DNA of 64,000 nucleotides, from positions 310,001-374,000 of the forward strand of contig KV748249.1 in NCBI GenBank assembly GCA_001692895.1, in the 5' to 3' direction. This DNA is from Cenococcum geophilum 1.58 (taxonomy: Eukaryota > Ascomycota > Dothideomycetes > Gloniales > Gloniaceae). Below, piece after piece: positions 14,346 to 56,501 of this stretch. The notes below the pieces were generated by a model. The model saw only the letters and a program-made list of their open reading frames with translations. It was not told the DNA's origin and searched no databases. Made by a program: the position numbers and the translations under genes. The first letter of the stretch is position 1, and each line of letters starts with the position of its first letter.

Positions 14346-14762
14346 TAGCCTTTTAAACCCACTTTTTATACCTAGCTAGATAGGCCTAGATTCCCTAAGA
14401 AGATTTACTACTAGACCTCTTTAATAAGCTTACCCTAAACCTATAGCGGGCCGTATTACTAGCTTATACTACGGTATAGATATTAAAGAAACTTATAAAC
14501 TATTGCCTAAATATTAATTAAGGCCTCTATTAAATTAAGGCATGTGCTAATTAGCTAAAAACTAAAAACCTTATAAACTAAGCCGTAAGTATTACGAGTA
14601 CGGCCTATAGTGCCCTAGTATAATCGGCAACTCCTATAGTTAACCTAGTAGCTAGCTACGTAGCTACCCCTACTACGGGCCTCGTTAGGAAAAAATTTAC
14701 CAGCATTTTTATAGCATTTGGCAGCATTTGGCGGCTAAATACGCATTCTGCGTACTATAACG

Positions 14763-14899
14763 TGTAGCATGTTATTGGTCAATCGAGGCACAGACACGAT
14801 AAGAGAGACGCGTAGGCCTATACGGTTGGATTGTCTATAAACGAGGATCTAAAGCTAGAGAAAGGAAAGGGGAAGAACGGAAGCACCGCTTAAAGTTAT
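14763..14899 (-). repeat. 3' (left) LTR of element D, first part
   Basis: Aligns with the right LTR of D (about 36880-37005) and is split by Copia-1 after GTTAT. The first ~55 bases of the LTR are missing or rearranged relative to the right copy. Confidence 0.75.
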
Positions 14900-15029
14900 T
14901 GTTGAAAAGTAATTCATGTTATCTCCCTCCAATCTTGGAGAGCTAGTGGCTATATAATACAATATTGGGGAGGCTGGGTACCCAGCCTCCCTATAATACC
15001 AGAAGGTCGATTCTTAATAAATCTTAACA
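14900..15029 (-). repeat. 3' LTR of Copia-1
   Basis: 130 bases, TGTTGAAAAG...CTTAACA. It contains an inverted GGCTGGGTACCCAGCC palindrome. Confidence 0.92.
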
Positions 15030-18000: not shown

Positions 18001-20596
18001 GCCAGCGATATTAGTGTGGATAAATTCAAGTGGGTAAGTTCCTGGTTTGAACTTCCTTTTATATAGTTTTTCTTTCATTCGTCCTTGGACGCATGGGATG
18101 TATACGCAGTTATCTGGAGGGGGGTCCATTCCGGTTAATATTGTTTTAAGTCTTTGTAGATTTTGCTCCCCTAGGTGGCCCATTCTTTTATGCCAGATTT
18201 TATACTATGCGGTAGTAATCGTATAGGCGGTTAGTCCTAGGGGTGGTTTTAATTGTTAGATATTAAATGCGTATAGGCTATGGAGTAAGGATGCTTTAAA
18301 TTTTGTTTTCTTTATAGTAATGATTATATCGTTATTATTAAAACCTATTTTTGCTCCTTTTGCCCACAGCTTTAATATAGAGATTAGATTAACACCCCAT
18401 TCTAGAACATAGAGAGTATCGTATAGGTAGAGGTCTACGTTTTTATTATTGATAAGGCAGGATAGTTTTATTGTCCTAATTGCTTCTAGTATTGCCCGCG
18501 CTCCTATAAAGCCCCTTAGTGGTCTGCCGGCGTAGCTTTGTAGTTCTATAAAGTCTTCTTTCTGGCAGCTGGAGTGGTGGGAGCAGCCAGAGTCGAGGAA
18601 GAAGGTCGCCGTAAGGTTTATATCTATATCGGCTGTTATAAGGTGAACGGCTTCTATACTATTTGATATGGCGTAGCTTAGACCTGCTATCGGTTCGTTT
18701 TCGTTTTCTTCTATAGGTTTATTATTCCTGCCCTTAGGTCTCTTATTCTCCTTATTATAGGAGTTACTTTATTTCCTTTTCCTTTCCTAATACTTTTCCT
18801 CATGGTATTTTCTTTTAAAGTTTAGGTGTAGTCTCTAATATTTGTCCTTTGTATAATAGAGCTTATAGCAGTATATATAACTTTTTATGTTTTAGGTATT
18901 TTGAGGGATTGCTAGTAGGGCAGTCTTGTTGTCTTCCCGTCCTCTTATATTCTGTTCTTCCCTTTCTGCCGCTTATATAGCTTTATTAAATATTACGGCT
19001 ACTTTTATAATCTTATTCTTTTTATTTCGTTCTAGTAGAAGGGAGTGTTTTTAGTAGAAGGAGGTTAGGAACATGTTGTAGTCCAGGCTGAGTCCCGTTA
19101 GGAATTTATTAACTAGGGAGATTTTACTAATTATGCAGTTAGGGTCGAGCTCCATGATCTCTGTTTGTGCTTCTTATAGCTTTTCCGTATAGCTTATTAC
19201 CCCCTTATAGGTATCTAGGGTAACTTCCTAGTACCATCTTTTAAGATATTAGTAGACTGCACTTCCTGTCAAACAAAAGCGTTTTTGTAGCTTAGTAAGG
19301 ATTTCATCTATATTTTCGATTTCTTTAACTTCCCTTGTGGCGTTGTAACCGAGTTTACTTCGGATGATACTATATGCTTATTCCTGTTTATTAAGCCAGG
19401 TGTCTAACTTAGTTTTATATGCTGTCTCCGATAGGGCCCCTTGTTCTAGTCTTTTTGCGTTCCATTTAAGTAGGTCCCTATACCCGTTTATTGATAAGTA
19501 GAGGCATATCTGTTTAATAAACTCTATCCATCCTATAGTAGATTCCAGCTTCTTTATCTTATCTAGCCCTCCAGTCCCTTTTTTAGCAGTGAAATTTATC
19601 TTTGCCTTAACTGTAGGTGTCTTTGGTAAGACTGGTAGAGGTCTCTTAGGCTTGTTAGGGATAGGTTTAGTCGTTAAGGCTTAGGAGGAGGTTTAGGATG
19701 TTCGGGGGAGATAGGTAAAGGTAATGGTAAAGGTAAAGGTGAGGTGTGAGCGATAGTAGGTTCGGGAGGTTTAGGTAGTTCCGCTAAAGCTTTAGGTAGA
19801 GGGTTGGAGTCCTTAGTGGTAGAGCTAGAGGGGTTTAGTGTTTCCAACCCTTTAAATTTAATAGATTCGTATGTAGTTTCGGAATCCTCTGGCGTATCTG
19901 GTGGGATGGATATAGTAGAGGTCTTAGAAGGTAATTAAGGAGGAGTTCGAACCTTAAGGCCGAAGAGTTCGTTTAAACTGGCTACAGAAAGTATACTGTT
20001 AGATATTAAAGAGTTATCTAAATCACTGGAGTAGACGGGTATAGTGCTGGGGTTAAAGTCTTAATCCTTAAAGTCTTCTGTAAAGATACAAGTATTGTCT
20101 TTGCTAATGTCCTCAACTATATAGGGGTAAAGGAAGGTATTAAGGAAGCGGTGGAACTGTGCTGGTTATAAGGGTTAAGGTCTTAATTAGTATAAAACCG
20201 GTCTTCTAGGTCTTCGGCGTGAACGTTAAGGAGTTAGTTTCTTTACTATTATAGTGGTTTATAACTAGATTATATAGTTATCTCGGGTTTAAAAGCACGA
20301 TTGTCCTGTAACTGAAAGGCTGGTATAGGGGTTTAACGATTTTTGAAGAATTTAAGAGGTTGGGTTTTAGCGTCTTGGCGCCCAGCCTTCTTATAAGGAG
20401 TTCTTCCAGGCCTCCTTTTTACCGTATTTCTTATAATGTTAGGTTTTTGGTAGTGTATATATATATTGCAAAGGTGCGTAGCAGAAGACAACTGTAAGAC
20501 TGTAAAGTTCCTCTAGAATATATTTTTAGTGGATTATATATTTAATTATAAGGTACTATAAGACTTAGCTTATTTGCATAATCCGGGCTTATAACC

Positions 20597-20726
20597 TGTT
20601 AAAAAGTGATTCATGTTATCTCCCTCCAATCTTGGAGAGCTAGTGGCTATATAATACAATATTAGGGAGGCTGGGTACCCAGCCTCCCTACGATACCAGA
20701 AGGTTGATTCTTAACAAATCTTAACA
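20597..20726 (-). repeat. 5' LTR of Copia-1
   Basis: 130 bases, the partner of 14900-15029. The differences I counted (about seven) are all transitions. Confidence 0.92.
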
Positions 20727-20807: not shown

Positions 20808-21022
20808 TATAAGGGATATTATTGCGGACACCTCGGGTTACCCTTAGGACAACCCCCGGACGCCCCTTAGATAGTCGCCGGTTATGTGCCAGAGGTATAT
20901 GCCCGTAGTATATAGTCTCTACAATCCTAGAGGCCTTACCTCCTTAAGGATTCATCTCTCTTACTAATCTATCCTATTCCAATCGTATCCTTATAGCCCC
21001 CTATCTATAAGATCCCCTTATA
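20808..21022 (+). repeat. 5' LTR of element C
   Basis: 215 bases, TATAAGGGATATTATTGCGG...CCCCTTATA. It pairs with 31247-31461; about 22 differences, all transitions by my count. Confidence 0.92.
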
Positions 21023-22618
21023 TTTAAATCCTTCCTACTCTTTCTTAGAAGGGTAGTCGGCTTTAAGGACCAGATTGTTTATTTATATCTTTTGTTAATA
21101 ACCACCATTCTCCCTTAAAATCTCGCAATAACCTAAACGGAAACTCTACGGATACCTTATAGAAAGCCGTTGCGTAAAGGCAAGAAGGTCCCTCTAATAG
21201 CAAGAGATTGTGATAATATAACCCTCTAGGCAAGACGGCTAAATAAGCCCTAATACTTAGATGCTCTAGAAGCTTAAAGACTCTTACACACCTATGGTTA
21301 CTGCTGAGGAAAACGTAGATACCCTCTATAACGGTCGTAATACTACCAAAAAGCAACTAGAACCCCTTTAGCCCCACCTAGGCTAATTAGAAAATTAAGC
21401 GCTAGAGGTAACTCTAAGATCTTCCTTTAAGCTAGAAATGCTAGAGAAATATACTAACGCGTCTAACTAGGGAACTAACCGGAACCCTCTTAGAAGACCA
21501 CTAGCCTATAATTGGTATAGTGGCGGTATATAAACTGCTTATAAGCCAAGTAGGCCTACCCCTTTAGGTAATCTAAGCTAATTACTAACTTAGGACCCGA
21601 GCCTTATTGGGAAGCCTATACTAGCTACTAGTACTAACACTACCTCTATAGTAGGAGCCTCCTTAGGCCCAAGTTTAGAAGGTTAAAAGCCTTATACCGA
21701 TCTCCTTTAAGACGGATATTAGGAAGCTGTTATAAGGCTCTTGGAAGCTATGCGGGAGGAAGCTACTAATAAATATATTAGAACCCTCTAAGGGCAAATT
21801 TAGATCTAGTAGGGTCTAATCTAAGCTAGGCAAATTTTTTTATAACCTAGTTAAGGCTAAGGGCTTCCTAGGAGCTACCTAGTACCTACTTAAGGAGGTA
21901 TAGAAGACTTAGAGAGTTATTTACGCTATAAATAGAAAAAGGATATAGACTGACTGGCTAAGGCCTCTAGTAGTTTAGAACTCCGCTATAGACCTAACGC
22001 CCAATAGTTGGATGATTGGGTTTATAAGGTAGACAACTTCTTTAAGATACTAATAATATAAGATAATACCAAAGAGCGTATACGCTAGATTATTAGTAAG
22101 ATTAAAGACCAATTGCTAAACTAGATTATACTTAATTAGCTTAATAAAGAGTAAATTACTATATAGCCATAGCTGCAAACCTTCTTAAAGAAATAGACTT
22201 AAGATCTGTATATTATATAATACGATAATACAAAGCTATTCTAGAATGGGACACAGCTAGACCGCCACAACTTCCGTTAGTTTATAAACTTTATAGAAAC
22301 TCGTGTTTAATAGATAGATCTAGAGCCCTTTAAAAATAAGGACGGTAGTATCTATAAAAAGGAGAAGATCAGGTTTATCTGGGCTAGAATTAAGCTAGTA
22401 ATTTATAATAAAATAAAGCGTATAGGAGCCCTATTGCGGATTACTATATATACGGATTTCGAACGAGTAGTTCTAAACGCTAAAGACGTGGTAAGGAACT
22501 AGACCTCTTCTAGTAGGAAGCTAAAGGGTTACTAAAAGCGCGGGCACTCTAGTACGTCAGGAAAACGGGGGGTGGCGCACGAAATTTAGTTTCGCTAAAA
22601 GTGTTTTTAGGGCCCAGG

Positions 22619-22790
22619 GCTAGCTCTCCGCCATATTAGCTGACCCCTAGGGCTATACGCTAGCTTCCGCCATATTAGCTGACCCCCTAGAGCTCTACGC
22701 TAGCTTTCCGCCATATTAGCTAACCCCCTAGAGCTCTACGCCAGCTTTCTGCCATATTAGCTAGGCCCTAGAGCTGTACGCTAGCATTAT
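22619..22790. repeat. ~41-bp minisatellite in X'
   Basis: About four tandem copies containing CCGCCATATTAGCTGACCCC and a following CTAGAGCTCTACGC segment, close to the left terminus of X'. Confidence 0.85.
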
Positions 22791-22865
22791 GCTAGCTTAT
22801 GGCTATAAATAAATATTATTACTATTATTTGCGTTTATGCTATTAGGGTATTAAAATCCTAAAGG

Positions 22866-22925
22866 CCTCCTAGCAGGCTCCTAGCAGGCTTCCTAGCAGG
22901 CTTCCTAGCAGGCTCCTAGTAGGAC
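22866..22925. repeat. 11-12-bp minisatellite in X'
   Basis: About five copies of a CTCCTAGCAGG / TTCCTAGCAGG unit. Confidence 0.8.
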
Positions 22926-23104
22926 TTTGATTTTCCTAGTTATCTTAATCGTCCTGACAGCGGCCCACAGTGCTATCGGGTCCCCACTATATTCCCGGCA
23001 GCCTCTTCGTGTCTTTGCATACCCCTTATACACCTAAATACCACTTATTTTTCACCCTTCCTTCCATCCTCTCTACCTAGGGAGGCACTACAACGGCAGC
23101 TAGC

Positions 23105-23585
23105 AAGAGGACTGTGGCCAGAACCAGACGACCATTGCCAGAACCAGATGATTATTGCCAGAACCAGACGACCGTCGCCAGAACCAGACGACCGTCGCCA
23201 GAACTAGGTGACTGTCATTCAGGACGACCGTCATCAGGACCAGACGACCGTCGTCACAGGACCAGACGACCGTCGCCAGAACCAGACGGCCGTCGCCAGA
23301 ACTAGACGACCATCGCCAGAACTAGACGACCGTCGCCAGAACCAGACGGCCCGTCGCCAGAACTAGACGACCGTCGCCAGAACCAGACGACCGTTATTAG
23401 GACGACCGTCATCAGGACCAGACGACCGTCGCCAGAACTAGACGACTGTCATCAGGACGACCGTCATCAGGACCAGACGACCGTCGCCAGAACCAGACGA
23501 CCGTCGTCAGAACCAGACGACTGTCATCAGGACGACCGTCATCAGGACCAGACGACCGTCGCCAGAACCAGACGACGATCGTTCG
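23105..23585. repeat. 20-bp minisatellite in X'
   Basis: Over twenty imperfect copies of GAACCAGACGACCGTCGCCA, some shortened. The 20-base period is not a multiple of three, so the 63-codon open frame here is a by-product. The reverse complement of the same unit recurs at 37.82-37.98 kb. Confidence 0.9.
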
Positions 23586-23699
23586 AACAACCAGTCAGCA
23601 ACACCACGAACGACTTAATCGATCGATCGAATCGAACCAGAGCCTCGATATCAGCCCCGCTAGCGAATCAAATTGAATTAGATACCATAGACAGATATA

Positions 23700-23875
23700 G
23701 ACGGTAGGCACAGAACAGGTAGGCATACACAGGTAGGCACAGACAGGTAGGTAACAGATAGGTAGGTATTAGGCAGGCAGGTAGGCAGGCAGGTAGGTAG
23801 GCAGGTAGGCAGGCAAGTAGGCAGGCAGGTAAGCAAGCAGGTAGGTAGGCAGGCAGGCGGGTAGGCGGGTGCTAG
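23700..23875. repeat. GGCA/GGTA microsatellite in X'
   Basis: Tetranucleotide-like tract of AGGTAGGCAGGC units. The reverse complement (CCTG/CCTA) recurs at 37.51-37.76 kb. Confidence 0.88.
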
Positions 23876-24100
23876 GCCTAGTTAGGAAATCAGTACACGG
23901 CCGGTGGATCGTCAGGAATATCGCTAATTGACGATTTGGAGCCTCTGCAAGAGGCTTCCCACTTATTTTAATTAATTGCTTAATACCCAAAATTTTAAAT
24001 TTTAAATTTTATTATTATTTTTATATAAATATTGCAGTTATAGAAAATATTATAACTATTATAGTAAAAAGATATATTATAATTTTTGGGGTTAATATTA

Positions 24101-24178
24101 TTAATATTGCTAATATTGCTAATATTGCTAATGTTGCTAATGTTGCTAATGTTGCTAATGTTGCTAATGTTGCTAATG
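24101..24178. repeat. 9-bp minisatellite in X'
   Basis: Eight to nine copies of AATATTGCT / AATGTTGCT. A stepwise change from ATATT to ATGTT units runs along the array. Confidence 0.88.
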
Positions 24179-25519
24179 GGGCCCGGGGCTAGCGTAAAGA
24201 AGTGTACATGAGCAGATCAGCGGATCCAGCTAAAATGACCCCGGGCCAGCCCCGGGCCAGCCCCTGGCTAGCCCCTACCACTCTCCCGTTTTCCTGACGT
24301 AGTAATATAGGGCAGACCTAACCTTTAAAGAAGCCGTTTTTAAAGAGAACTTTAGAAGGGTTAAAGTTAGGAACCTTAAATAATAGGAAAGACTTCTGGG
24401 GCCAACCTAATACCTATCTAGCACCTTTATGGGAACACTCTAAGAAGTTAAGAGAAAACTCCGGAGGCAGATTTTATTGGAAAAATAAGTAGGGCAATAA
24501 CCGCACTAATAATCTAAAAAAAGAAAAGCCCTAGTTATAAACCTCTCCCAGCTATAACTAGGGCAAGATATAAAAGGAGAGACTCTCTATATTGCTGTTA
24601 AGCTGGAAATAATACTCCCTATAGGTGAGGTATAACAGTTCTAAGCACTATACAACAGCGGCGCCGAAATTAATCTTATACGATATAATTTGGTAAAAGA
24701 GTATAAACTTATCCCATTATAAAGGTGGTAAAAACCTATTATAGGCTTCCTAGATAAGTATTAGATTAAGCTATATAGTGCCTATAAGCTTATAGTATTA
24801 GTGGCCAATATATATAACCGCACTAAGGTAGTTAGCCCGCAACCCTTTTGGGTGGCTAACTTTATAGGTTATAACCTTATCCTTAGATACCCTTAGCTTA
24901 TAAAAGCAGATCCTAAGATACGCTTTAAGACAGGAGCCTTTAAATAGTAGAATAATAAAGATTTGGAAGGGCGTATATTACTAATAAGCCTAAAGGATAT
25001 CCTAGAGAATATAGCCCTAGGCAAAATAGTGTACACTTTACACCTAAAGGAGTATTAAATCCAACCCCTATTTAATAGCAAGATAGGTATAAAGCTTAGT
25101 ATAGGTAACAACTCCTCTATAATAGAGACCCTATAGGGAACTGCTAAACAGGTCGCGGAGACATTATAGGGAGGCGGCGATCTTAAGGATCTTACGAGAT
25201 ACTTTAACCACTATAGGTTACTCTAGCTTAAGTAATATGCAGAGAGTATACTACGGCACCTCAAACGCTGTGTTAAGGAGTTCCCTACCCTTTATTGGCT
25301 ACTATATAAAACGGTTTAACGTACGGTGGCAACTATATATAAGCAACCACCACAGCGTATAACGCTGCCCGCGAGTATTTTAAGGGAGCTCTAGGACCTA
25401 CTTAATAATAACGCGGAGGACAAACGCGACCCCAATTTGTTAAATATTCTAGTAGGCCTAAGGGACTTACTAAGGGTATTTTCGGGCAGGAGAGCTAAAG
25501 TCCTACTATAGAACTTAGA

Positions 25520-25570
25520 GTACGATNANNTAATTAATNTAGAAGAAGGNAAANAACNNCCNAACCTTNN
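25520..25570. other. Cluster of ambiguous bases in element C
   Basis: About a dozen scattered N calls in ~40 bases, unlike a single assembly gap. They suggest that reads from several near-identical copies disagreed here. Confidence 0.8.
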
Positions 25571-28500
25571 TATNTATAACCTCTCGCGTAAAGAGCTTAA
25601 GATCCTACAGGAGTACCTTAATAGCTTACTAGAAAAGGGATAGATCTGGCCTAGTAAGTCGCCGTTAGGCGCGCTAATTCTCTTTATCCTAAAACTAGAT
25701 AGAACTATAAGGCTATATATAGACTATCGCGGTCTTAACAAGATTACAATTAAAAACCGTTACCTACTACTACTAGTTAGTAAAATGCTAGATTAACTAT
25801 CTAGGGCGAAGATCTTTACAAAGTTGGATTTATAAGACGCCTATTATAGGCTCCGTATTAAAGAAGGGGATAAGTGGAAAACCACTTTTAAGACCTAATA
25901 CGGCTACTTTAAGTATCTAGTAATACCTTTTAAGCTAGCTAATACGCTTACGACATTCTAATTGTATATTTATAGAGCCTTAGGGGGATTAGTTAACCGC
26001 ACATACGTTATCTATTTAGATAATATCTTAATCTACTTAGAAGACGAGGATTAACACAAGCAACATATCCGCGAAGTACTGGAACATTTAGATAATTAGG
26101 GCCTCTACGCTAAAGCGTTAAAGTATATCTTTAATACTAAGCAGGTCAAGTTCCTAGGTTACATTATAACGCCTATAGGTGTAGTTATAGACCTAGTACG
26201 GGTATAGACGATTTAAGAGTGGCCAGAGCTAGAGAGCTACTGGGATATTTAAGTATTCCTAGGCTTTACCAATTTCTATAGGCGCTTTATCTATAACTAC
26301 TTAGACGTCGCCTAATACCTATTTAACTATATTATGGAAGCTTCCTAAGACCCAACCCAAGGAGTAAAAAGCTTAAAGGCGGTAAGGAAGAAAACTAAGA
26401 AGGGACCAACTAAATAGTATAAGCCATGGTTATGGCCCGGAAAGGTTTAGGAGGCCTTTTAAGAACTTTGTATAAAGTTTACAGAAGCTCTATTACTGCG
26501 GCATTTTAACCTAGATTAGCTATTAATAATAATAACTAATATATCAAATTTTGCCCTTGCTGGTATCCTACTATAACCTAATAGGCATCCGGACGCTACC
26601 TAGCTCTATTAAAGACTAATAGTATTTTATAGCAGAAAATTCCAGGGACCTAAAGTTAGGTATTATACCCACGATAAGGAACTACTGGCTATAGTTAACT
26701 GCTTTAAACAGTGGTAATATTACCTTAAGCACGCGAGCCATACTACTTATATACTCTTAGATTACTATAATCTACGCTACTTTATAACTACAAAGGAGCT
26801 TATACCTTAACAAACCAGATAGGCAGAGGAGCTTACGTAATTTAATTTTAAGATTAAATATAAGCTAGGGGAAAATAACCCTACTAATAGACCGTTATAA
26901 CGGCTAGACTATGCTAAAGGCTTTAAAACGGGAGAAGGAAAACAGATAATAGATATCTTACTCCTTATATTATAGAATAAGCTCTAGGTATGGGATGCTT
27001 AAGTACCTATAGCTCTATGTATTAAGTCTTAAGCAGTGTAAGCCCTATTAGTTTCTACTAATATTCTAGCTAGTACCCGGTCCGTTACTAATAAGGGTCC
27101 AAATATACCTGGATAGGACGTCCCCAATACATTCTTAGAACCTAGTAATACACCATCCCTAATTGCTAAGCTATTCCCTTAAACTAATAGCGAAGCCATA
27201 GAGTAATCGGAACTTGGAGCCCTATAATAACTAAAGAACTTTAACCTTATAGCGGCCTTCCTAACGTATACGTATTAAAGAGTTATAAGATCTATAGTAC
27301 TATCTAGTTTTATACTTAAAGCAGTATAGGACAAAATAGCTTTTACCCGGGAACCATTTAAAGGGTTAACGGATTTTATCTATAAGGTGCAATAGAGGGA
27401 CGCTTTCTATGCCATTTTTAATACGGAAGTAGACTGGAAACATAACAGAAAGGAAGCTGCTAGGCGCTACTATTAGGAACTAGACCCAATAGGCCTACTA
27501 CATAAAGGTAGTAAGGTTTAGGTGCTATAAGAAGTAAATCTACAACAGAAGATTCTTATAAAGAATTACGATAATCCCCTAGGCGGCCACTATGGTTAAG
27601 TAAAAATAGTGGAATTACTTTAGCGTAAATACTATTGGCCAAGGCTTAATTAGGAAGTAAAGGAGTATATTAGCTATTGCAAGAAGTATTAAGTATATAA
27701 GATCCGTAGGTATAAGCCATAGAGTCTACTTAAATTAGTTCCCCCCGCTAGTAAGCTATAGCAATATTACGCCATAGACTTTATTACGGATCTCCTACTA
27801 TCTAAAGATGGCTAAGGACGAATATATAATTCGGTTCTCGTACTTATTAATAGGTTTTTAAAGTACGTCTAATACCTTCCCGTTAATAAGACGATTAACG
27901 TATAAAAGCTTGCCAACCTAATTAAGGAGAAATGCTTTCTTAAAGTAGAATAGCCGCACTCTATTATCACTAATAGGGGCAGCGTCTTTATAAGCCAGTA
28001 CTAGTCAAATCTATGCTTCCATTTAAAGATAGACTACTATTATAGTATAGCTTTCCACCCGTAGACGGATAGGTAAACGGAACGCCAGAATTAGGAACTG
28101 GAGTCTTACCTATGGATATATTTAAACTACTAGTAAGATAACTAGTGCGAGCTACTTCCGTATACGGAGTACGCTTATAATTTAAAGTAATATATATTAT
28201 ATAAGTATGCACTAATCCAGATTACCTATAGCGTCCAACTATTTGGGTTTAATAGTATACCCAACAATCACTGGCTAAAGCCGCATAATTAGTTATGGGA
28301 TCCTACCAGGAAGTTTAAGAATATCTACCAAAGAGTATAAGGATACCTCTAGGAATAGGAGGAGCAATAGAAGCATGCAAAGCAGAGCCTACAAGATGCC
28401 TAAGAGTAGTAAAGACTTTGGTATAACCATAAGCACCAAAATAAGCATTTTGGAGTAGGCGATGAGGTTTTATTATGTTTAACGAATATTAAGACCCGTT

Positions 28501-28869
28501 AACTATTAAAGAAGCTTAATATAAGATACCTAGGTCCCTTCTAAGTTAAGGAACGAATTAGCAAGCTAGCCTATTGTCTTTAGCTACCCCTATCTATAGC
28601 CCATATATATCTAGTGTTTTACATAAACCTACTAGAGCTATAGCATAGACTACTGCCGGAAAAGAACTTCTATCTAGGCCCAATTAAATACCCTAAGGTA
28701 GTAGGCGAGCGGTATAAGGTTAAAGCTATACTACGTTATAAGTCTGTTAAGAACAAGCTTTAATTTAAAGTCAAATGGCTAGGCTAGCCTGTTAAGGACT
28801 CTATATAGGAACTAGAGGATTACCTTAATTATTATAAAGATATTCTAAAAGAATATTGGGACTAAGGTC

Positions 28870-31230
28870 TATAATCTATAAATTATAGAAAGCGCTTTAA
28901 TACTATGGTGTCATCGCGACCTATAAAGAAAACTCGCGAAAAGAGTAAATAGGTTAAATTAGATATGAAATGGATAAGCTCTAGAAACCATAAGGATTAA
29001 GGCTATATAGCCTAAGGCAGGATGGGTCCTTAGCCTTTTTACGTATATAGCATAGAGTTAATAGGGCATTTTGCTAGAATTATATTCCCATTCATTAATC
29101 TATACCAGAAATATTATTTTTAGGGCTCCCAAGCCCTTTCTAAAAGCCTTCTAAGGCCTTTTTAAGTACCTAATTAAGGTCCTTAATTGCTACTATATAT
29201 AAGAACGAATCCTAAAAGTCCAAACCACAAATGCCTAATCTGAAAAGCCACTACGCCCCATTATCATCAGGAGTAGGATTAGTATCTATTGGGCTACTAA
29301 GTAATGGCTAACAAGAATGGGATCTAGATACCTTAGTAGGCGTACAAGTAGGTATAAAAATAGGGGTAGGACGATGAGGTATAGCTAAAGCAGAGACTCT
29401 TAAATGCTTAACACTAATATTAGGTCTAAACTAATACTAATAAAGCTCTTATAGTGTAAGCTTATAGTTAATAAAGATACACTTAAGCCTAGAATAAATA
29501 GAGACATTAGCTGGCTGGTATAGTCCAGAACCACCGAGACCTTACTACGGTAACTGTCAGTTACCTATCTACTAGGTACCTAAAGGGTAACCTACCTAAT
29601 ACCGCATTATATTATGCTCTTTTAAAACTTAACGCGTATACGCGAACTCCTTCCTATAGTAGATGGCAACCTTCTTCTTATTACCCCCATCCCTTACCCT
29701 ATCCTTAGTATACTAACCTTACTCTTATATTAGGCGTTGCTAGCTAGCTTGCTGGGAATTATAGGTAGTGTAGATGGCTGTAGTATAGTCTTAAATTTGG
29801 CTAAGTTGTTTAGCATTTACGCTAGAATAAGAGAGAGCCCGGGTGATATAGTAGTTAAAGATATTAAAGAAACGTCGCCACTTAGGCCTAGGCTATTATT
29901 AAAGCTTAAAGTTAGCAATAGAAATCTATTAAGGATAGAAAAACTTACCTTAACGTAACTGCCGCTCTTAGTACGCATGCATCAATTATAAGGACTAAAG
30001 GTATTGGATTTAACGTAGTGCGTCTTATTACAAGCCTTTAAAATCCTATCATTAGATTTCTGGTCTTTCGAAGACGTATAGGCAAAATTATTTAGGTAGG
30101 ACTAGTACTAGTTACGGGTTAGTAGGGGTTAGGGTTTTATATGTAAAGGTAGGGCTAGGATACGCTGTGGAATTTACTTAGAAGAGTAGTTAGTAGGAGA
30201 ATGAAGAGGTATATTAAATTATTAATAAAAAAGAAGAAAATCTTAATAATATATTAAAGATACGTCCAAAATTAGACGACGGTTAATGGCGAAAAGTAAG
30301 GTGTTTAAGAAAAGGAGCAGCTTAATAAGTAAGGTGTCTTTATACTTTACCTTCTAATACCCTTCCGGTAAATAACCGTAACCTTGCCGATATAACTCCG
30401 TTATAATAGCGCTATTTAAAAGGAAGGAAACACGCGTATAAGTTATTTAACTATTACTTCCTTATAAAAACTGACTACGCGGCCAGGGGAAGGTAATTAA
30501 GACGTTAAATTAAAGATATATATGGGTTAAATTAGACCTAAAACAATACCACAGTATTAAAGAATAACGTTATAGACGTTTTTGATAATCGCACAATAGC
30601 TACAATTACTATCGCGAAATGTCCCTATTTACTAGGTAGTAGAGCTACGCTAAATATACGGTATAGAACTACTAGATTTAAAACTATATACACCAAATCT
30701 TAAAAGACAAGTCTCTTTAACTAACTAATTAATACCTTAACCGCATCTAATAACCTAAGGGTAAATACGGGAGCAATGCGTTAGTAACGTAGGGGATTAT
30801 AAGAAAAGGATTATAGACTATATTTTAGCAGTTAAAAACAACAGCAAGCCAAGGCTCTATACGTTAAATCCTATACCAAAGGTTTTATAGAACTATACTA
30901 GAACACTAAATTGCCTATAATACTTGTAATTAATTATAGACCGGCATAAAGGCTTAGAAGCAGAGTTGTATAAAAATCCCTATATTAGCCTAAGTAGTCA
31001 CCGGCATGCTTCTAGTAGACTTTTAATAGGTCTCCTAGCAATCCTCGCGTCTTTTCTCCAGTTATATTTTTTTCTTATTAAGGTTTTTTAGGAGTTTAAA
31101 GCAGGGGTTAGATAGATAGATAATATACAGCGGCATGCTAATACCTCTCCGATATCTCTCCGAACCTCTTCCGGGACAAGCCCTTATAATCTCCCTACCG
31201 TAAGGTAATGGCGATCGGGGGCCAACCGCA
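28870..31230 (+). other. Long unassigned 3' region of element C
   Basis: 2.3 kb between the chromodomain-like end of pol and the polypurine tract. I recognise no domain. One 73-codon open stretch (29737-29958) stands out in otherwise stop-rich sequence. It may be untranslated sequence or a relic of an extra 3' reading frame; there is no internal terminal repeat to suggest a further insertion. Confidence 0.5.
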
Positions 31231-31246
31231 AAAAGGGGGGGGGCAA

Positions 31247-31461
31247 TGTAAGGGATATTATTGCGGACACCTTGGGTTGCCCTTAGGACAACCCCCGGAC
31301 GCCCCTTAGATAGTTACTAGTCACGTACCGGAGGCACGTGCCCGTAGTATATAGTCTCCACAATCCCAGAGGCCTTACCTCCTCAAGGATTCGTCTCTCT
31401 TACCAATCTATCCTATTCCAATCGTGTCCTTATAGCCCCTTGTCTACAAGATCCCCTTATA
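31247..31461 (+). repeat. 3' LTR of element C
   Basis: 215 bases beginning TGTAAGGG. It is directly preceded by the G-rich polypurine tract and followed by TSD CCCCC. Confidence 0.92.
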
Positions 31462-34400: not shown

Positions 34401-36821
34401 TATAGCCTATAATTTAGCAGTAGATTGCTGGTAAAGGGGGCTAAAGCTAAGGGTGTTTTCCTTGTCTGGCTTAATCTCGATCTTATAGTTATACGGTTAG
34501 TAAGGCGGGAGTATATTAGACGCTGCCTTAGAGAATATATCCTTAAATTTCCAATGTCAATAGGGTAGTTTCTGTTCTACTAGCTCCTCGTCTATAAGCT
34601 TACTTTCTTACCTACTAAGCTCGCTTTCCTTTTCTTTAATTATTTAATTAATTTCATATAAGCTAGTGGTAAAGGTAATAGTGTTAGGCTAGACTAAGTT
34701 CTGGTAGAATCCTATGGCGCTAATATAGCAAATATTAACTAGTGGGAGGTCCGTGGGTTTCTTTACAGCCGTTTATTAGACCGTATTTTGCGGTTTAGGG
34801 TTTATAGTCTTTCTTAGCTCCTATTCCATCTTCTATAAGTTATCCCTCTAATTTATCAGCTTAGTATAGCGTCTAATACTCCTTATTGTCCTTTATAGCT
34901 ATATAGGGCCTAAGTTCCCCGTGGGGGGCTTAGCTGGGTCGCTACTAACTCCCTAGGTTTCTAGTACGGGTGGCGTAGTATAGGTAGCTTAGGGGCGACG
35001 TAGTATACGGATCCGTTACTAATTACGCCGTACTTCTTTCTTAAAGGCCTGGTCCCTATGCATAGCATCGGCCTAGTAAATAGTATTTATCTAGGGCCGT
35101 ATAAGGTTCTCTATTATAATGCTAATTTCTTTTATAAAGGAAGGGGTTAGGGGTAGGGTTTTGGGCTAAATAAGCCGTCTATTCCGTACGTTGAGCTACA
35201 AGTCTAAATAGGTTAGCCATTTTCTCCCTAAGATTATATTATGGCTTCTAAGGTCCGTAATAAGGAAGGGGATATTATACTGCCTTTATCCGTTAACACG
35301 GAGGTAGATCTACAAGATAGTTATAATAGGTGGCCCTATCCGTCCGTTATAACCGCGAATAGGGATTGGTTTGGGCAGTTCTTTAAGGGGTATATTTAAA
35401 AAGTTAGCCAGTTTTACAGCGTACTTTATATTAATTAAGGTAAAGGTATTTGCTCCTAAGTTAGCTAAAGCAGAGGTTAAAACTTAATATCTATTGCGGA
35501 ATAAAGTATAAGGGATAGTGCAGCTTTTTTTACTAACTAGCCGACCTAGATCGATATATAATATATTAATCCCTTTTAATCCTAGAGAGAAGTCTTCCTC
35601 TAGGGTTCCTTTTTTTCCAGCTCCATACTATCCTCTTAGATTAACAGGACCTCGTTTATCTTTGCCTTTATTAGGCAGTTCCTTATAGGGTAGCCTATTT
35701 AACCGCACGAGAAGCAAGCTCCTTAATCGCTAAGGGCCTATATATAGGGGTCGCTGTATATAGGTTAGGTGTACACTAGGCCCGCAGTAGGGGTAGCTAC
35801 GCGGCTAGCTGCTAGGTTAACTATAGGAGTTACCAATCATGCTAGGGCACTATAGGCCGTACTTATAGTACTTGTGGCCTGGTTTATAAGGTTTCTAGTT
35901 TTTAGCCAATTAGCGCGTGCCTTAATTTAATAGAGGCCTTAGTTAATAGCTAGGCAATAGTCCGTAAGTTCCTTTAATATCTGTGCCGTAGTATAAGCTA
36001 GTAATACGGCCCGCTATAGGTCTAGGGTAAGCTTATTAAAGAGGTCTGGTAGTAGGTCTTCCTAGGGGATCTAGGCCTATCCGGCTAGGTATAGAAAGCG
36101 GGTTTAAAAGGCCGAAAAGGTCTCCGTTGTTTTTATGTTTAGGCTTTTATAGCTAAGGCGGGCGTTCTATACTTTAAAAGGGTCTTTATAAATAGAAGAT
36201 AAGTATTTAATTATTTCTTCTTTAGAGATAAAGGGGTCTATTAAGTCTTTAGTGTATTACAGGCGTAAATACGTCTAGGCGTCTCTGCTAGTACGGCCGA
36301 AAACATAGGCTATTCTAGCTTGGGCGTTAGGGAAGTGGTCTATATTAACTTTAAGCTTATCCTATAATTAAAGCTTCCAATTATTAAATATAGGGTCGGT
36401 TCCGTTTATAAGTAGTAGGGGATCCGCGACCTTTGCCGACCGCTTCGATGCTATATAGGCCTCGGTAGATCTATTAAGGCGCTAGGATAGGGCCTAAAGG
36501 ACTATAGTAAGTCTTTAGTTATCTAATAATAACTCATTATTAGATATAGGGGTATCTCTGGCTTCGAGCAGCTCTTACAGTCGTTTAATTTCGGTATTAG
36601 CAGCCGTAAGCTCCGCCTAGGGGATTAAAACGTTAATTATTTCTTCGTCTAAAGTATTTAAGGGTCCTATAGCTGCTTTACCTGCTACTATATTTTATGG
36701 CATGGTAGTAGGGGTATTAGGTAATTCTGGGTAATTTCTTTAGGGGTTCTGGTCTGTGCGTGTCTTATAGGTCCTTTCCTTAGGGTTCTGTTCTTATCCT
36801 TAGGGTCCTGTTCTGTATTCT

Positions 36822-37079: not shown

Positions 37080-37094
37080 TAGCGTATAGTATTA

Positions 37095-37330
37095 ACTAAG
37101 GTGCGGCATACTGCCGTATTTAATAATGCGGTACGGTATACTACCGTATTTAATAATGCGATATAGTATACTACTGCATACTGCTATATTTAACAACGCG
37201 GTACAGCTAACTGCCGTATTTAACAATACGGTACAGCTAACTGCCGTATTTAACAATGCGGTGCAGCTAACTGCTGTATTTAACAATATGGTATAGTATA
37301 CTGCCGTATTTAACAATACAGTGCAGCTAA
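37095..37330. repeat. 30-bp minisatellite in X
   Basis: About eight copies of a ~30-bp unit containing CCGTATTTAACAATACGG, itself a near palindrome. It lies just to the right of D. Confidence 0.88.
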
Positions 37331-37514
37331 TTAAGCATTTTACACTTAATGCGCAATTAATATATAATGCCCTCCTCGTGCATTCTGTATATAATGCCCT
37401 CCTCGCGTATTTTATATATCTTGCTCTTCCTACGCACTTAATAGTATTTGCTTGGTTTATATAGTTAGTGCAAAATTATATTATTTTAGATAATTTAATA
37501 TATAGCGACGGTTC

Positions 37515-37557
37515 TCTTCTACCTGCCTACTTACCGACCTACCTGCCTGCCTGCCTA

Positions 37558-37588
<31 letters not shown>

Positions 37589-37765
37589 ACCTACCTGCCT
37601 ACCTACCTACCCGCCTGCCTGCCTGCCTACCTGCCTACCTGCCTACCTGCCTACCTACCTACCTGTCTGTCTGTCTGTCTATACCTACCTGTTTGTCTAT
37701 CTATCTATACCTACCCGTCTATGCCTACCTATCTGTGCCTACCTGTCTGTGCCTACCTGTCTATG
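37515..37765. repeat. CCTG/CCTA microsatellite in X
   Basis: Tetranucleotide tract, the reverse complement of the GGCA/GGTA tract of X'. It is followed by a GATCGAT.GATCGAATCG block as in X'. The 162-codon frame running through it is a repeat product. Confidence 0.9.
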
Positions 37766-37817
37766 TCACCTTNATTCGATCGATNGATCGAATCGTTTAT
37801 CGTGTTCGCTGGCTGGT

Positions 37818-37980
37818 CGTTCGAACGGTTGTCGTGTGGCTCTGGCGACGGTCGTGTGGCGATGACGACGGTCGTCTAGCTCTGGCGACGGTCATCTGGC
37901 TCCGGCGACGGTCGTCTAGCTCTGACGACGGTCGTCTGGCTCTGACGGTCGTCTAGCTCCGGCGACGGTCGTCTGCTGGC
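37818..37980. repeat. 20-bp minisatellite in X
   Basis: About eight copies of TCTGGCGACGGTCGTCTAGC, the reverse complement of the 20-bp unit of X'. The flanking unique block (37980-38115) matches X' 22960-23105 reversed. Confidence 0.9.
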
Positions 37981-38118
37981 TGTCGTTCTGGTGTCTTCCT
38001 AGGTAGGGAGGATGTAAGGAAGGGTAAAAAATGAGGTGGCTACCTAGGTGTATATAGGGGGTATACTTGGCAGAGGCACGTGTAGAGGCTATTGGGAATA
38101 TAGCGGGGACCCGATGCG

Positions 38119-38340
38119 GAGCTTCGTGTAGAGCCTCCGTACACAGAGCTTCGTGTAGAGCCTCCGTACGCAGAGCTTCGTGTAGAGCTTCCGTACGCAG
38201 AGCTTTATGTAGAGCCTTGTGTAGAGCCTCGTGCAGAGCTTTGTATAAGAGCTTCGTGCAGAGCTTCGTGCAGAGCTTCGTGCAGAGCTTCGTGTAGAGC
38301 TTCGCGTAAAGCTTTGTGCGGAACTTCGTGCAGAACTTTA
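38119..38340. repeat. AGAGCTTCGTG minisatellite in X
   Basis: First 27-bp units (AGCTTCGTGTAGAGCCTCCG plus TACGCAG), then 12-bp GCTTCGTGCAGA units. Related units occur at 53964-54075 and 54407-54560. Confidence 0.88.
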
Positions 38341-38477
38341 AACTTTATATAGAACTTTAGGAAAAAATTACTAGCATCTAATTTTACTTTTCTGCCATTT
38401 TAGCATTTTCTAGCATTTAGCTGCTAAATGCTAATACTTAATTATAAATGCAGCATTTGGCGGCTAAATGCTAGTAC

Positions 38478-40910
38478 CAGTGTGTCCAAGAGTCAGCTAC
38501 GCTGTCAGCTTCGCTGCCAAGAGGCTGATAACGTAAGTAGTCAGCGAGCTTATAGAGTTGTGACAGTCAGTCAGCTATAAAACTGCAGCTAGCTGGCAGC
38601 TCGCTGTCTTGGTGGTAAGATTTGGTAGTAAGCTAAAGCTTTTATTAGAAGTTAAGGATATTTAGACCTTTAGCTAAGATCTAGTTAAGCTTACTAGTAA
38701 ATATAAATACTAAGTTGTTAATAAGCGGTTACTATTAGGTAAAGCTCCTATATTACTAATATAAAAGTATAAAGTAATCCTTTTTTAATACGGTCTTTTA
38801 GGAAGAAAGAGGCTCTAGTTTAAAGACTACGCGTTTTACTTATAATTAGTAGTAATAATTATATTAATAAGTATATAAAATTAAAGTATAACCTTATTAT
38901 TAACTCTAAAAGTTATAGTAGTTATAAACGCTAGCCGTTTTAGACAGCTAACTATATTTATATCTATATTAATTAAATAATTCTATAAGATATTACCTTC
39001 CGTTAAGCTATAAGTCCTTTTATACGCGCTCTACTAATATTTAACAGTCTTTAGATCTAGGACTATATTATAAAGGCGCCTATATTACTAAGCAATTAGA
39101 TTAAAATATATTTAAATAGCAACGTATTAATAATAAAGACCTCCTTCTTACTATACTTAGTAAAATTAATCTTATCTATTATATCTAGATATCTATAAAT
39201 AGAATATACTACTTAGTATTGTAGCTTATTATTAATAAAGGTAAAAGGCTTTAATTAGTACTTTTATTACCTTATAAACTATAAGGATTCTACTTTACTA
39301 AAAATATATTAACGGCCCTAGTACTAATAATTTAAAGTAATTAATATCAATAAGCTGCCTCTTAATAGCTAATAATACTAGTAATAATAATAAGCACTAT
39401 AACTACCCTTTATAAAGCCTTCTTAGTAGCTAAAAAGGGGTAGCTTAAGTGCGTAGGCTATATTATTACCCTTAAGCTTAAAGAAAGTCCATTAATATTA
39501 GCTATAATCTAAGAAACGCGTTTAACTTTACTAAGTAGAAATAGTAACCCTAGTAATAAAGTACGCCAAGAGGTATATAGACTCTATTTAATAGCTATAT
39601 TAATAAGTAAGCAAATAAGGAAGATAAGGAACTAGTTAAGCAATATGTAAAAAGGCTCCTTATAAACTAATAATAATAATTATACATAATAAATAATATA
39701 TACAGTTTTCTTAGATATAGGTAGGAGTTTTTCTTCCTTAAAGTATAATTAAAAGCGTATAATAAGCTTACTCTAATAAGCTTTTAACCGCTACTATAAA
39801 TAGAATAGGCTATTAAGTATATACATGTTATTAATAGTATAGTAATAAATAGTTAATAATTAGATTTATAGTGATATATTTGCTATCCCTAATATATACT
39901 AGTAAATTTAGTCTATAATTTTACTTATACGGTATGACATCCGAATTTTACTAGAAATAGCTTGTAAGTTATAAAGCTTTATTCATGGTAAATTATCAAT
40001 AGTAGTATTAAAGCTCTAGATTATATTTAACCATGTAGCAGTTATTAAGAGATTATTAAGAGTTTAAATTATGATAATAAATTTAAGAGGATATCTTAGA
40101 TTAATTAGTAGTAACATAGTTTAAATTTAAGTTATAAATGAGTATATAGGTTAATATTAGTATAGGTAAGAGTTGATTAAGAGAGCTTACTTTCTTTAAA
40201 GTTGAATTTAATTTAATAATATTCTAAATACTACTATAGGTTTTAAACTAGATTATAAAGTTCTATAGTACTTATAAGTGTATTAAATATTATATATTAG
40301 TTATAAGCTAGTATACTAAGTTACTATTAGGTCTAAAAAAGAGAAAGTCTACCTTATAGCTATATCTGTAATAAAAATTTAAGATAAATTATTTAATATA
40401 GATGTAGCGTATATATATAATTAAGGATATTAATTAATATAATAGTAGCTAATTTAGAGCCTTTATAAATATAGTTATACTATTTAACTCGTATTACTTA
40501 CTTTTGTAATACTGTTTATTAACTTTAACTAGAGGATATAAGGCAAGATCTACTATAGTTATGCTAATATCTATTAATAGCTTTAAAGAATTTAATATTA
40601 AAATAGCTAATTTTAAGGCTTTATCATAATATTGATAATTAAGATATTATCTATTTATTGCTTTTATACCTTAGAGCTATATAAGTTATATAGAGAGCTA
40701 TTGTAACAATATATAGTAATTAAGGTCGATTTTTATATATATTATTTTAATATATAGAAGGTACTGCTAAAATCCGCAATAAAATACTATAAAGTCTATA
40801 TTACTTTTTCCTAATTATCCGACAGCTAGCGGACAGCGAGCGATCCAATTGACGCAGTCAGTCAGCTATTTTTCTCAAGATCGCAGCTAAGCTGACTGTT
40901 GGACACACTG
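38478..40910 (+). mobile_element. hAT DNA transposon, decayed
   Basis: 2,433 bp with terminal inverted repeats CAGTGTGTCCAAGAGTCAGC (left) and the reverse complement of CAGTGTGTCCAACAGTCAGC (right). The 8-bp TSD GCTAGTAC is perfect (38470-38477 and 40911-40918). An 8-bp TSD with CAGTG ends is diagnostic of hAT. On the plus strand near 39.37 kb a stretch reads ANNTSNNNKH, matching the hAT DNASNNDT motif with D-to-N changes expected from G-to-A decay. At about 39.44-39.48 kb a segment reading LKCVGYIITL matches the RCLGHIINL motif. The transposase frame is destroyed by numerous stops, and no ORF over 60 codons remains. Confidence 0.87.
39360..39520 (+). pseudogene. hAT transposase core relic
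   Basis: The best conserved part of the dead hAT transposase gene: the ANNTSNNN and LKCVGYIIT motifs are separated by about 20 codons, as in fungal hAT transposases (RNase H-like core, second catalytic Asp region). RIP-type changes account for the Asp-to-Asn replacements. The rest of the gene (roughly 38.6-40.7 kb) is too decayed to delimit. Confidence 0.7.
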
Positions 40911-41449
40911 GCTAGTACTTAGTAATAAATGCAGCTAAATGCTAATACTTAATTATAAATGCCGCATTTGGCGCTAAATGCTAGTACTTAGTAATAAATG
41001 CCGCATTTAGCTGCTAAATGCTAGAAAATGCTAGAAATGCTAGAAAATGCTAAAATGGCAGAAAAGTAAAATCAGATGCTGGTAAATTTTTTCCTGACGC
41101 TAGTATATACCCAGCCTATATATAGCGACCCCTATATATAGGCCCTTAGTAATTAAGAAGCTTACTTCTTATATAGTTAAATACGCTACTTTATAAGGAA
41201 CTGCTTAATAAAGGTAAAGATAAATAAGGTTCTATTAATTTAGGAGGATAGTATAAAGCTAAAAAAAAGAGGAACTCTAAAGGAAGACTCCTCTCTAGGG
41301 TTAAAAGGGATTAATATATTATATATTAATCTAGGTTGGCTAGTTAGTGGAAAAAGCTACACTATCCCTTATACTTTATTCCGCAATAAATATTAAGTTT
41401 TAACTTCTGCTTTAGCTAACTTAGGAATAAATATCTTTACCTTAATTAA

Positions 41450-53935: not shown

Positions 53936-53963
53936 CCGGAGTGCCTCCACTACTACTAGGGGG

Positions 53964-54075
53964 CAGAGCTTCGTGCAGAGCCTTAGTAGAGCCTCGTGCA
54001 GAACCTTAGTAGAGCCTCGTACAGAGCCTCATGCAGAGCCTCGTGCAGAGCTTCGTGCAGAGCCACGTGCAGGCG
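53964..54075. repeat. AGAGCCTCGTGC minisatellite
   Basis: About nine 12-15-bp units of the AGAGCYTCGTGC type, then CGTGCAGACGTGTAGACG units. They are related to the arrays at 38119-38340 and 54407-54560. Confidence 0.85.
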
Positions 54076-54406
54076 TGCAGACGTGTAGACGTGCAGACGT
54101 TCGTACGGGCGATCAATTGCAGAGACGTTTGCAGAGACGATTATATAGGCAATTGACCGATTGACTATATAGGAGTTTGTACGGGCGTTTGTACGGGCGA
54201 TTGTAGAACCTTCCTAGTATATTAGTGCTGCGTGTTAGTAGAGCTTTAGAGCTCTATATAGGTGAAGAAAAGAGACTATATATACATGAGGTAGGTGGTG
54301 AAACGCTGATAACGATGCTAACGATAGAGCTGACGACTACGATTTATAATTGCCACTGTCGACAACGCCACTTAGTCGGTATTTGGTAATGGGAATCGAC
54401 GATAGG
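54076..54406. other. Intergenic stretch between minisatellites
   Basis: Contains short CGTTTGTACGGGCG and GTTTGCAGAGACG repeats (54095-54205) and otherwise unique sequence of balanced composition. No gene is seen. Confidence 0.5.
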
Positions 54407-54560
54407 GCTTCGAGTAGAGCTTCGAGCAGAGCTTCGAGCAGAGCTTTGAGCAGAGCTTCATGCGGAGCTTCGGGTAGAGCTTCGTGGGGAGCTTCGTGCA
54501 GAGCTTTTGTAGAGCTTTGGTAGAGCTCCGTGTAGAGCTCCGTGNAGAGCTCCGTGCAGG
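54407..54560. repeat. 12-bp minisatellite
   Basis: Twelve to thirteen tandem copies of GCTTCGAGCAGA and variants (later units GCTCCGTGTAGA). The period is a multiple of three, which explains the 74-codon open frame on the minus strand here; I do not call it a gene. Confidence 0.92.
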
Positions 54561-55024
54561 TCTCCCCCTGAGCTTCGTTCCGTAGAGCTCTCGCAAAGCT
54601 CCACAGCTCTACGCAGAGGGCTGGCGGCGTGGGCGTAAGCGTTCAGCGTTGGTGTTTACTGAGCGGCTCGGCGGTAGGTAGAATTAGGGCCTCTACGGCG
54701 ACGAATTCCTCTTAACGTCGCGCGCGTATAAGGAGTTAAAGATCTCATTACTTATAGAGTAGGCTTTTCTCTATAATTTGGTGTAATTTTTATGTCGATA
54801 GGTATTGTGGGGGGGTAGATCAATTTTGTTAAAGTTAATGAGGTCTTCTCATATAAGGCCATATTCGATAACTATCATATATTGGGGGGGCTGATTTGGC
54901 GCGGTTACGACCCTGGTTAATACGAGGTTAGGGCTGACCCCTACTAATAATACGCCCGAACCCCGTACGAGGTCGGGCAGCGACCGCCCCCGAGTACTTT
55001 TGCACGCGATTTTGGGCGAAAAGG
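54561..55024. other. Border between repeat block and gene-bearing sequence
   Basis: Composition rises from AT-rich to balanced across this stretch. No gene is seen. 54790-54835 is a less altered relative of 53350-53395 (differences mostly G/A and C/T), so it belongs to a repeat also present in region G. 54860-55010 is GC-rich and unique in the window. Confidence 0.5.
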
Positions 55025-55026
55025 TA

Positions 55027-55085
55027 AGAGTATGGTGCATTGCGGATGCATATAGACAGAATTTTAAGCGATTTTTGACCAAGTC
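55027..55085 (+). repeat. Left terminal inverted repeat of Tc1/mariner
   Basis: 59 bases starting AGAGTATGGTGC, the mirror of 56441-56499. Confidence 0.93.
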
Positions 55086-55230
55086 AATCTGCAGTAGACG
55101 TGATCACGCCTGCGTACTGTGAATACTGCCGTGACTTGCCGCCTGTTCTCACCAAAATCAAAACATTGACGCGCCCGTATACACCCCCATTACCCCCCAT
55201 TACCCCCCCTTGCTCTACACGTCTTCTAAA

Positions 55231-56355
55231 ATGAGCTCCCCTGCGCGTGGTCCAACGCGTAAAAGCCATATAAAGACTCCAACACGCGTACGAATTCGTA
55301 CTTACGATGAAATGGGACTAACGCAAAGAGAAATCGTTAAAAAGCTAATAGAAGAGCGTGGGGTTAGTGTACACCAATCAACAATCTCTCGCATTATTGC
55401 CTCAAAGCGTAGCAAAAGAATTAAGCCAAAGGGCAAGGAACGCAAGCTATCAGAACGTGCAGTTCGCTATGTTACAAGATTAATTCGCCAGGGCTGGTTC
55501 GGCAGAAGAATGACTTACCAACGACTTATTAAATAGCTGGATCTTAAAGTCTCCCGTTGGACGCTTGGCCGCCCGCTTCGATATTATGGCTGGAAGCGTT
55601 GTGTTGCCTGCCGTTGTCCCTTTATTTCTGAAAAGTAAACAGCTAAACGACTTGATTGGGCCCGCCGACATGTCAACTGGACGGTTAACGCGTGGGCTAC
55701 GGTCATTTGGTCAGATGAGGCTACATTTATGACGGGCGAACGTGGAAGGCTTTATATTACACGTCGCGTATGGGAGAAGTCGCACCCAGATTGCATACAA
55801 TCGGTATATCGCTCAGGGAGAACCTCGTTTATGGTATGGGGTGCAATTGGATGGGGGTGGAAATTAAAGCTGGTGTTCTTGGAGAGACGCCATGGCAAGA
55901 GAGGTATTAATAGTAGAGATTACGCAGAGCAAGTGCTTGAAGTAAGATACCTAATCTCGAATATCTCAAGGCTCTACTAACTAAATCTACCAAAACAGGA
56001 GGTAGTGGGCCCATTTCTCCAAGATATGGAACCCGACACTATCTTCATGGAGGACGGCGCCAAGGTGCATCTTGGCTTTGCAAAAGCTGTTCGTAAGGCT
56101 CTTAATATTCGAGGATTTAGTCAATGGTGGCCACCAAGCTCTCCTGATTTAAACCCAATTGAAAAGGTATGGCGTTGGATAAAGGCCCGAATTACACAAA
56201 TGGATAAGTTTCCAACTACGCTTGATGAGCTTAAGCAAGTCGTTTAGGATCTTTGGGACGAGATGGATCCTTACCGGTTTATTAAACATATCGAGAGCAT
56301 GCCTAAAAAGCTTGAGGAAGTTATCAAACGACGTGGCGGAGCTACTGTATACTAA
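55231..56355 (+). pseudogene. Tc1/mariner transposase, lightly decayed
   Basis: Cut-and-paste transposase of the Tc1 branch. The first ATG in frame is 55231 (upstream in-frame TTG ignored). A 57-bp intron fits 55942-55998 (GTAAGA, branch CTAAC, ACAG), joining QVLE to EVVGPF and giving 355 codons, close to the usual ~340. The N-terminal helix-turn-helix half (residues 10-100) includes GLTQREIVKKL and STISRII. Catalytic residues are D162 (WSDEATF), D256 (MEDGAKVH) and E292 (SPDLNPIEKVW); D256 to E292 leaves 35 residues by my count, one more than the classic DD34E. Three in-frame stops (codons 102, 136, 320) are each explained by single C-to-T or G-to-A changes, so this copy is probably inactive. 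It sits alone between the transposon nest and the NLR gene. Confidence 0.88.
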
Positions 56356-56440
56356 ATTGTGGTATATTTGGAGGCGTTTTGGTGTTGCAAGATATTGGTG
56401 ACGTAATATACTTAGGCGTGATTACAACTACACGCAGACC

Positions 56441-56499
56441 GACTTGGTTAAAAATCGCTTAAAATTCTGCCTATATGCATCCGCAATGCACCATACTCT
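56441..56499 (-). repeat. Right terminal inverted repeat of Tc1/mariner
   Basis: Ends GCACCATACTCT next to the TA duplication. Confidence 0.93.
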
Positions 56500-56501
56500 T
56501 A

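Follow-up and report, generated by a model that had tools for sequence, protein, structure and literature searches.

A satellite-rich candidate DNA transposon within an LTR retrotransposon of Cenococcum geophilum

The window analysed here is a stretch of 64,000 nucleotides from Cenococcum geophilum 1.58, with a RIP-like composition across most of its first 54 kb and a gene-like composition across most of the remainder. Within it an LTR retrotransposon surrounds the segment X' (1745 bp, window positions 22555-24299), a diverged relative of the satellite cassette of X' lies at locus X, and another element, Y, has the same tip as X'. The features are as follows.

20808-31461, + strand: host LTR retrotransposon around X', with LTRs at about 20808-21022 and 31247-31461 and a reverse transcriptase domain
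22550-22554: left flank of X', TAGTA; target duplication TA or TAGTA (2 or 5 bp agree with the reading frames)
22555-22569, + strand: left terminal inverted repeat (TIR) of X', CGTCAGGAAAACGGG
22610-22624, + strand: subterminal motif GGGCCCAGGGCTAGC; the other exact GGGCCCRGGGCTAGC match is at 24179-24193, with no third in the window
22619-22785, + strand: 41-bp tandem array of X'
22867-22923, + strand: 11/12-bp tandem array of X'
22975-23105, + strand: non-repetitive cassette leader, common to X (75.2% identity over 113 aligned bases)
23106-23576, + strand: 20-bp tandem array of X' with a 55/75/95-bp higher order, common to X
23577-23698, + strand: spacer of X', its first part common to X
23699-23866, + strand: 14/15-bp array of X' running into 4/12/16 bp, common to X
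24093-24178, + strand: 9-bp tandem array of X', TAATGTTGC
24239-24275, + strand: GC-rich 11-bp subterminal array of X'
24285-24299, - strand: right TIR of X', 15/15 perfect
24300-24304: right flank of X', TAGTA; target duplication TA or TAGTA
37519-38115, - strand: X, a divergent counterpart of the X' cassette in reverse orientation, no CGTCAGG ends found
38355-41099, + strand: element Y, same tip as X'; right end CGTCAGGAAAAAATT, left tip degraded
14683-14772, + strand: fragment whose Y-type tip adjoins the opposite side of the repeat-R site of Y; its far end is placed approximately
35776-35790, + strand: uninterrupted repeat-R site in R copy A, the empty site for Y

An earlier note on this DNA had described perfect 15-bp inverted ends and matching TAGTA flanks, and both are indeed present (junctions TAGTA/CGTC...GACG/TAGTA). 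The identity of the TIRs stops after 15 bp, and the exact inverted arm reaches 17 bp when the TA on either side is counted. At up to three mismatches CGTCAGGAAAACGGG had two matches in the 64-kb window, both exact and on opposite strands, against 0.61 expected, and two or more matches were reached in 14 of 100 shuffles. The length of the inverted pair alone is weak evidence, because 100 dinucleotide shuffles contained on average 1.44 such exact 15-bp pairs each at a spacing of 0.4-4 kb; pairs with matching 2-bp flanks occurred in 7 of 100. Pairs with at least nine G/C numbered only 2 over a further 100 shuffles, and in the real window there are three such k-mer pairs, one of them X' and two being overlapping k-mers of an element at 55024-56502.

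Stronger support for X' than the TIR length comes from the tip that it has in common with Y. At up to two mismatches ACGTCAGGAAAA had nine matches in the window where 3.63 were expected, a number reached in none of 100 shuffles, and one of these matches (41089-41100, minus strand, one mismatch) is the right end of Y. All 11 of the 11 terminal bases of X' and Y are identical, and beyond the tip there was no BLAST match between the two at E<=1e-3. Y is 2745 bp long and has long, imperfect inverted ends with a 34-bp exact stretch, the right one carrying a tandem array (40934-41065). Its left tip, CTTTAGG, is degraded and adjoins the 12-bp array of locus X, not R. Its right boundary is fixed not by the tip but by the alignment of repeat R, which picks up again at 41100 (opposite 35779). 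When the window was searched for this R site, three places came up and no others: copy A without an insert, GCGGGCCTAGTG; the 14-kb copy, CGGGCCT/CGTTAGG; and copy B, CCTGACG/CTAGTA. Known both filled and empty, the site suggests a 2-bp CT duplication for Y, the CT being pieced together from two different R copies. In the 14-kb copy the Y-type tip starts at 14683, a boundary read by eye because in BLAST the similarity extends as far as 14685, the third base of the tip. Repeat R itself gave no Pfam match. It is also interrupted by a 130-bp LTR-like repeat pair (14900-15029 and 20597-20726, TG...CA) with GTTAT on both sides, between which lies a Pol_BBD match on the minus strand (18256-18768, E=2.8e-10).

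The host of X' is recognisable from its LTRs, which align as direct repeats (20810-21022 to 31249-31461), and from a reverse transcriptase domain downstream of X' (RVT_1, E=6.8e-24); the host pieces adjoining X' gave no gag-type Pfam match. Left of X' (22254-22553) the three frames contain 5, 13 and 12 stops, and right of it (24300-24560) 11, 4 and 10, or 11, 6 and 10 when counted to 24599. By arithmetic on these counts, the frames with the fewest stops can be connected only when X' takes with it a number of bases that is 2 modulo 3 (2 or 5 bp). This agreement is supporting and not decisive, because a longer left stretch (22104-22553) has 14, 15 and 16 stops and prefers no frame. The TAGTA flanks could reflect a duplication of only 2 bp, TA, and three bases that match by chance. 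Thus the earlier claim of a DNA transposon holds as far as a TIR-bounded insertion is concerned, on the ends, the flanks, the tip of Y and the empty site of Y, and is borne out only in part by the host frame. The 64-kb window holds one complete copy of X' and no known empty site for X' itself.

X' is one of three satellite-dense loci in the window. The five or more tandem arrays that had been claimed (41, 11-12, 20, 4 and 9 bp, and GC-rich) are all present, and their hand-merged intervals add up to 986 of 1745 bp (56.5%), so that the description of X' as made almost entirely of satellites was overstated and over half is the better wording. Coverage is 69% at locus X (37081-38353), 54% at the 54-kb locus (53960-54560) and 2.0% of the 60,381 bp outside these three. 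Compared with the rest of the window at E<=1e-3, a weak test for short arrays, the outer 41-, 11- and 9-bp and GC-rich arrays of X' matched nothing. Hairpin-forming units as a common principle of the arrays were not supported (fold z-scores from -3.4 to +1.8 over 18 arrays), and Rfam gave no matches in 22000-42500.

The largest part of the body, a satellite cassette of about 0.9 kb, has its counterpart at locus X. Positions 22975-23248 of X' align to 38115-37831 (minus strand, 75.1%) and positions 23419-23865 to 37975-37534 (minus strand, 73.5%), and the order of leader, 20-bp array, spacer and 14/4-bp arrays is identical in both. The MAFFT alignment of the cassettes split the leader badly, and therefore the leader identity was taken from a separate comparison. 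The arrays that flank the cassette differ, being 41, 11 and 9 bp and GC-rich in X' and 12, 27 and 30 bp in X. The unique leader favours a shared ancestry of the cassettes over independent birth. As no CGTCAGG ends were found around the relative at X, the satellites of X' were probably captured and not made by the element. The suggestion that X' generates minisatellites is thus unsupported, its largest block being common to X in the same order with no such ends found there. Locus X as a whole (37081-38353) consists of 30-, 27-, 4-, 20- and 12-bp arrays between repeat R and Y, with no inverted ends found, and the 12-bp GCAGAGCTTCGT-type arrays of the third satellite locus (53963-54556) match its 12-bp array at 38115-38338.

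The mutation pattern separates the neighbouring repeats from the cassette. Transitions and transversions stand at 106:10, 103:7 and 37:1 in the R copies and 23:0 in the LTR pair, and at 20:8 in the cassette leader, 25:9 in the 20-bp end with the spacer, 23:11 in Y's own ends and, on a poor alignment, 108:62 in the whole cassette. Cautiously put, the neighbouring repeats diverged almost only by transitions, as under RIP, and the cassette pair did not. Of the transitions, 27-33% in R, 52% in the LTRs, 30% in the leader and 8% in the 20-bp end with the spacer lie in CpA/TpG context. Because of these shares RIP as the cause is something that we only infer, and the context test sets just part of the cassette apart from R. 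The composite RIP index is 1.44 and 1.23 in the host retrotransposon and 0.43 in X'; values of 1.32 in the core of X and 0.76 in the left outer part of X' go against a simple reading, and the arrays skew the dinucleotides. X' may have arrived after its host had undergone RIP, its length may be too small or its divergence too great for RIP to act, or the arrays may protect it. It would be a bold and improbable extension that X' persists in a RIP-active fungus thanks to its satellite body, X-type cassettes serving TIR elements as shared, exchangeable armour. On that reading array lengths would shift so fast that two copies would never be colinear over the length required for RIP, and therefore X' would be hardly mutated while its neighbours were destroyed.

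TIR transposons carrying satellites are already known from several groups of eukaryotes, and X' is an unusually satellite-rich one. In the parts of the cited papers available to us, the foldback element Tetris of Drosophila virilis (PMC4079207) resembles X' in having tandem repeats and ends in common with another element, and it is thought to be mobilised by the same autonomous element as that partner. Tetris differs in carrying one repeat type (about 220 bp) within its TIRs, whereas X' has several arrays in its body and TIRs of 15 bp. A foldback structure with repeat-bearing TIRs was rejected for X' itself, the TIR identity ending at 15 bp and the left and right arrays being different. Xenopus miDNA4 and the lepidopteran (GTCY)n MITEs (PMC9659126) are likewise non-autonomous TIR elements with an internal satellite, but as described in the accessible text they have one repeat type each and a MITE size of about 400 bp. 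The Merlin families (PMC8101967), proposed as spreaders of proto-satellites, are DNA transposons with divergent tandem-repeat regions; according to the portion of that paper at hand, the family Sy.k_F1 has a conserved transposase domain, unlike X', in which none was recognised. The MITEs of Mycosphaerella graminicola (PMC4522978) come from a fungal, RIP-affected genome. In the available part of that report 2-bp duplications are given for 9 of 13 families (8 TA, 1 CT), the same two kinds as in X' and Y, and families with the same ends and different interiors are grouped; in contrast to X', satellite-filled bodies are not mentioned in that part. In open-access text we found no description of several unrelated arrays in one fungal element, and the full 15-bp end CGTCAGGAAAACGGG was likewise not found, the papers that came closest containing no more than a 12-base part of it.

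On balance it is somewhat probable that X' is a non-autonomous TIR DNA transposon, that it was moved by a transposase recognising the tip, and that its body came mainly from filler capture. One and the same transposase would recognise the tip CGTCAGGAAAA and would have moved X' into the retrotransposon. The body would derive mainly from captured filler, for example through template switching during repair of an excision gap, an X-type satellite cassette being taken up between the ends, and replication slippage may then have altered the array lengths and added local arrays by both ends. Filler capture in gap repair is known from work on plant elements. The interior of X' (22570-24284, six frames) gave two weak Pfam matches to unrelated families, both below the cut-offs, and no transposase. 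A DDE transposase of the Tc1/mariner superfamily was recognised by Pfam in six frames in neither X' nor Y. The interior of Y is heavily mutated and gave no Pfam match in six frames with stops read through, and because of this Y could not be named as the autonomous partner. With target duplications of TA (or TAGTA) in X' and CT in Y, a TA-specific transposase does not fit both.

Other explanations of the same data have to be weighed against filler capture. In line with the spreading vehicle proposed in the earlier note, X' could belong to an established satellite-bearing TIR family whose body includes the arrays and which spread them by transposition, seeding loci such as X. We see this as a possible but unlikely origin: the same cassette is present elsewhere, at X, satellite density peaks at X', X and the 54-kb locus, and Tetris (PMC4079207) and the satellite-bearing MITEs (PMC9659126), as far as the available text describes them, are published precedents, but X has different neighbouring arrays and no CGTCAGG ends were found there, the outer arrays of X' are without a match elsewhere in the window by the test described above, and the window has one copy of X'. 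Slightly less likely still, in our opinion, the satellites would serve the element itself, the outer arrays being transposase-binding subterminal repeats multiplied by slippage in a foldback-like manner. Consistent with this, the window has just two exact copies of GGGCCCRGGGCTAGC, one at a distance of 55 bp from the left tip and the other at about 106 bp from the right tip, GCTAGC has a density of 5.16 per kb in X' vs 0.42 elsewhere, and the right inverted end of Y has an array as well. However, GGGCCCRGGGCTAGC was chosen post hoc and its number of matches with three mismatches allowed was attained in 6 of 100 shuffles, the density of GCTAGC is partly due to the 41-bp array itself, the left and right arrays differ, and the central cassette is left unexplained. 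The position of GGGCCCRGGGCTAGC near both ends leaves open a putative transposase-binding role.

That the inverted ends are a coincidence, and X' a minisatellite block in a retrotransposon and no transposon, we regard as highly improbable. Satellite loci in which no such ends were found do exist in the window, at X and at 54 kb, and exact 15-bp inverted pairs of any composition readily arise by chance, as the shuffles indicate, but GC-rich pairs are rare among them, the flanks of X' match, the frames agree beside the junctions, and the 11-bp tip is also on Y.

Copies were also sought in two other sequence collections. In viral_contigs the 17-mer TACGTCAGGAAAACGGG occurred at one locus (L001), without an inverted partner, and the 14-mer CTACGTCAGGAAAA in at least 120 stretches (L002-L121). 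Among the matches listed (L001-L121), three (L019, L032 and L121) hold four inward-facing tip pairs with one mismatch in total, no inward pair is free of mismatches at both ends, and past the tip none looks alike by eye; L066 has an exact tip pair that faces outward. The 20-bp array, the two Y-end patterns and the leader had no matches in viral_contigs, exact patterns finding near-identical copies only. In genome_contigs the 17-mer TACGTCAGGAAAACGGG gave 17 loci, none with an exact inverted partner and one (L126) with an inward partner about 0.8 kb off that has one mismatch in the 11-bp tip; none of the 17 resembled the window by blastn at E<=1e-3. The matches in viral and prokaryotic contigs look like chance. 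Two loci in a single Pleurocapsa MAG (L132 and L134) looked promising but were set aside, since by eye two contigs of this MAG overlap at their ends (the first ~140 bases) and so double one chance match.

X' links two repeat classes that are usually studied separately. If it is multi-copy, it would be a fungal TIR element that has acquired an entire series of minisatellites, and it would offer a natural experiment on RIP escape by satellite-like bodies; if it is single-copy, it would document the capture of filler by a transposon.

Two further features lie towards the right end of the window. The element at 55024-56502 shows little RIP signal and has inverted ends some 89 bp long (90%). The helix-turn-helix matches of its short ORF are weak and fall below the cut-off, and downstream of this ORF a broken Tc1-like transposase can be read by eye. 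At 58451-61255, beside a repeat block, there is a 934-aa open frame with a TPR_12 match (E=3.1e-35), which by eye is NLR-like.
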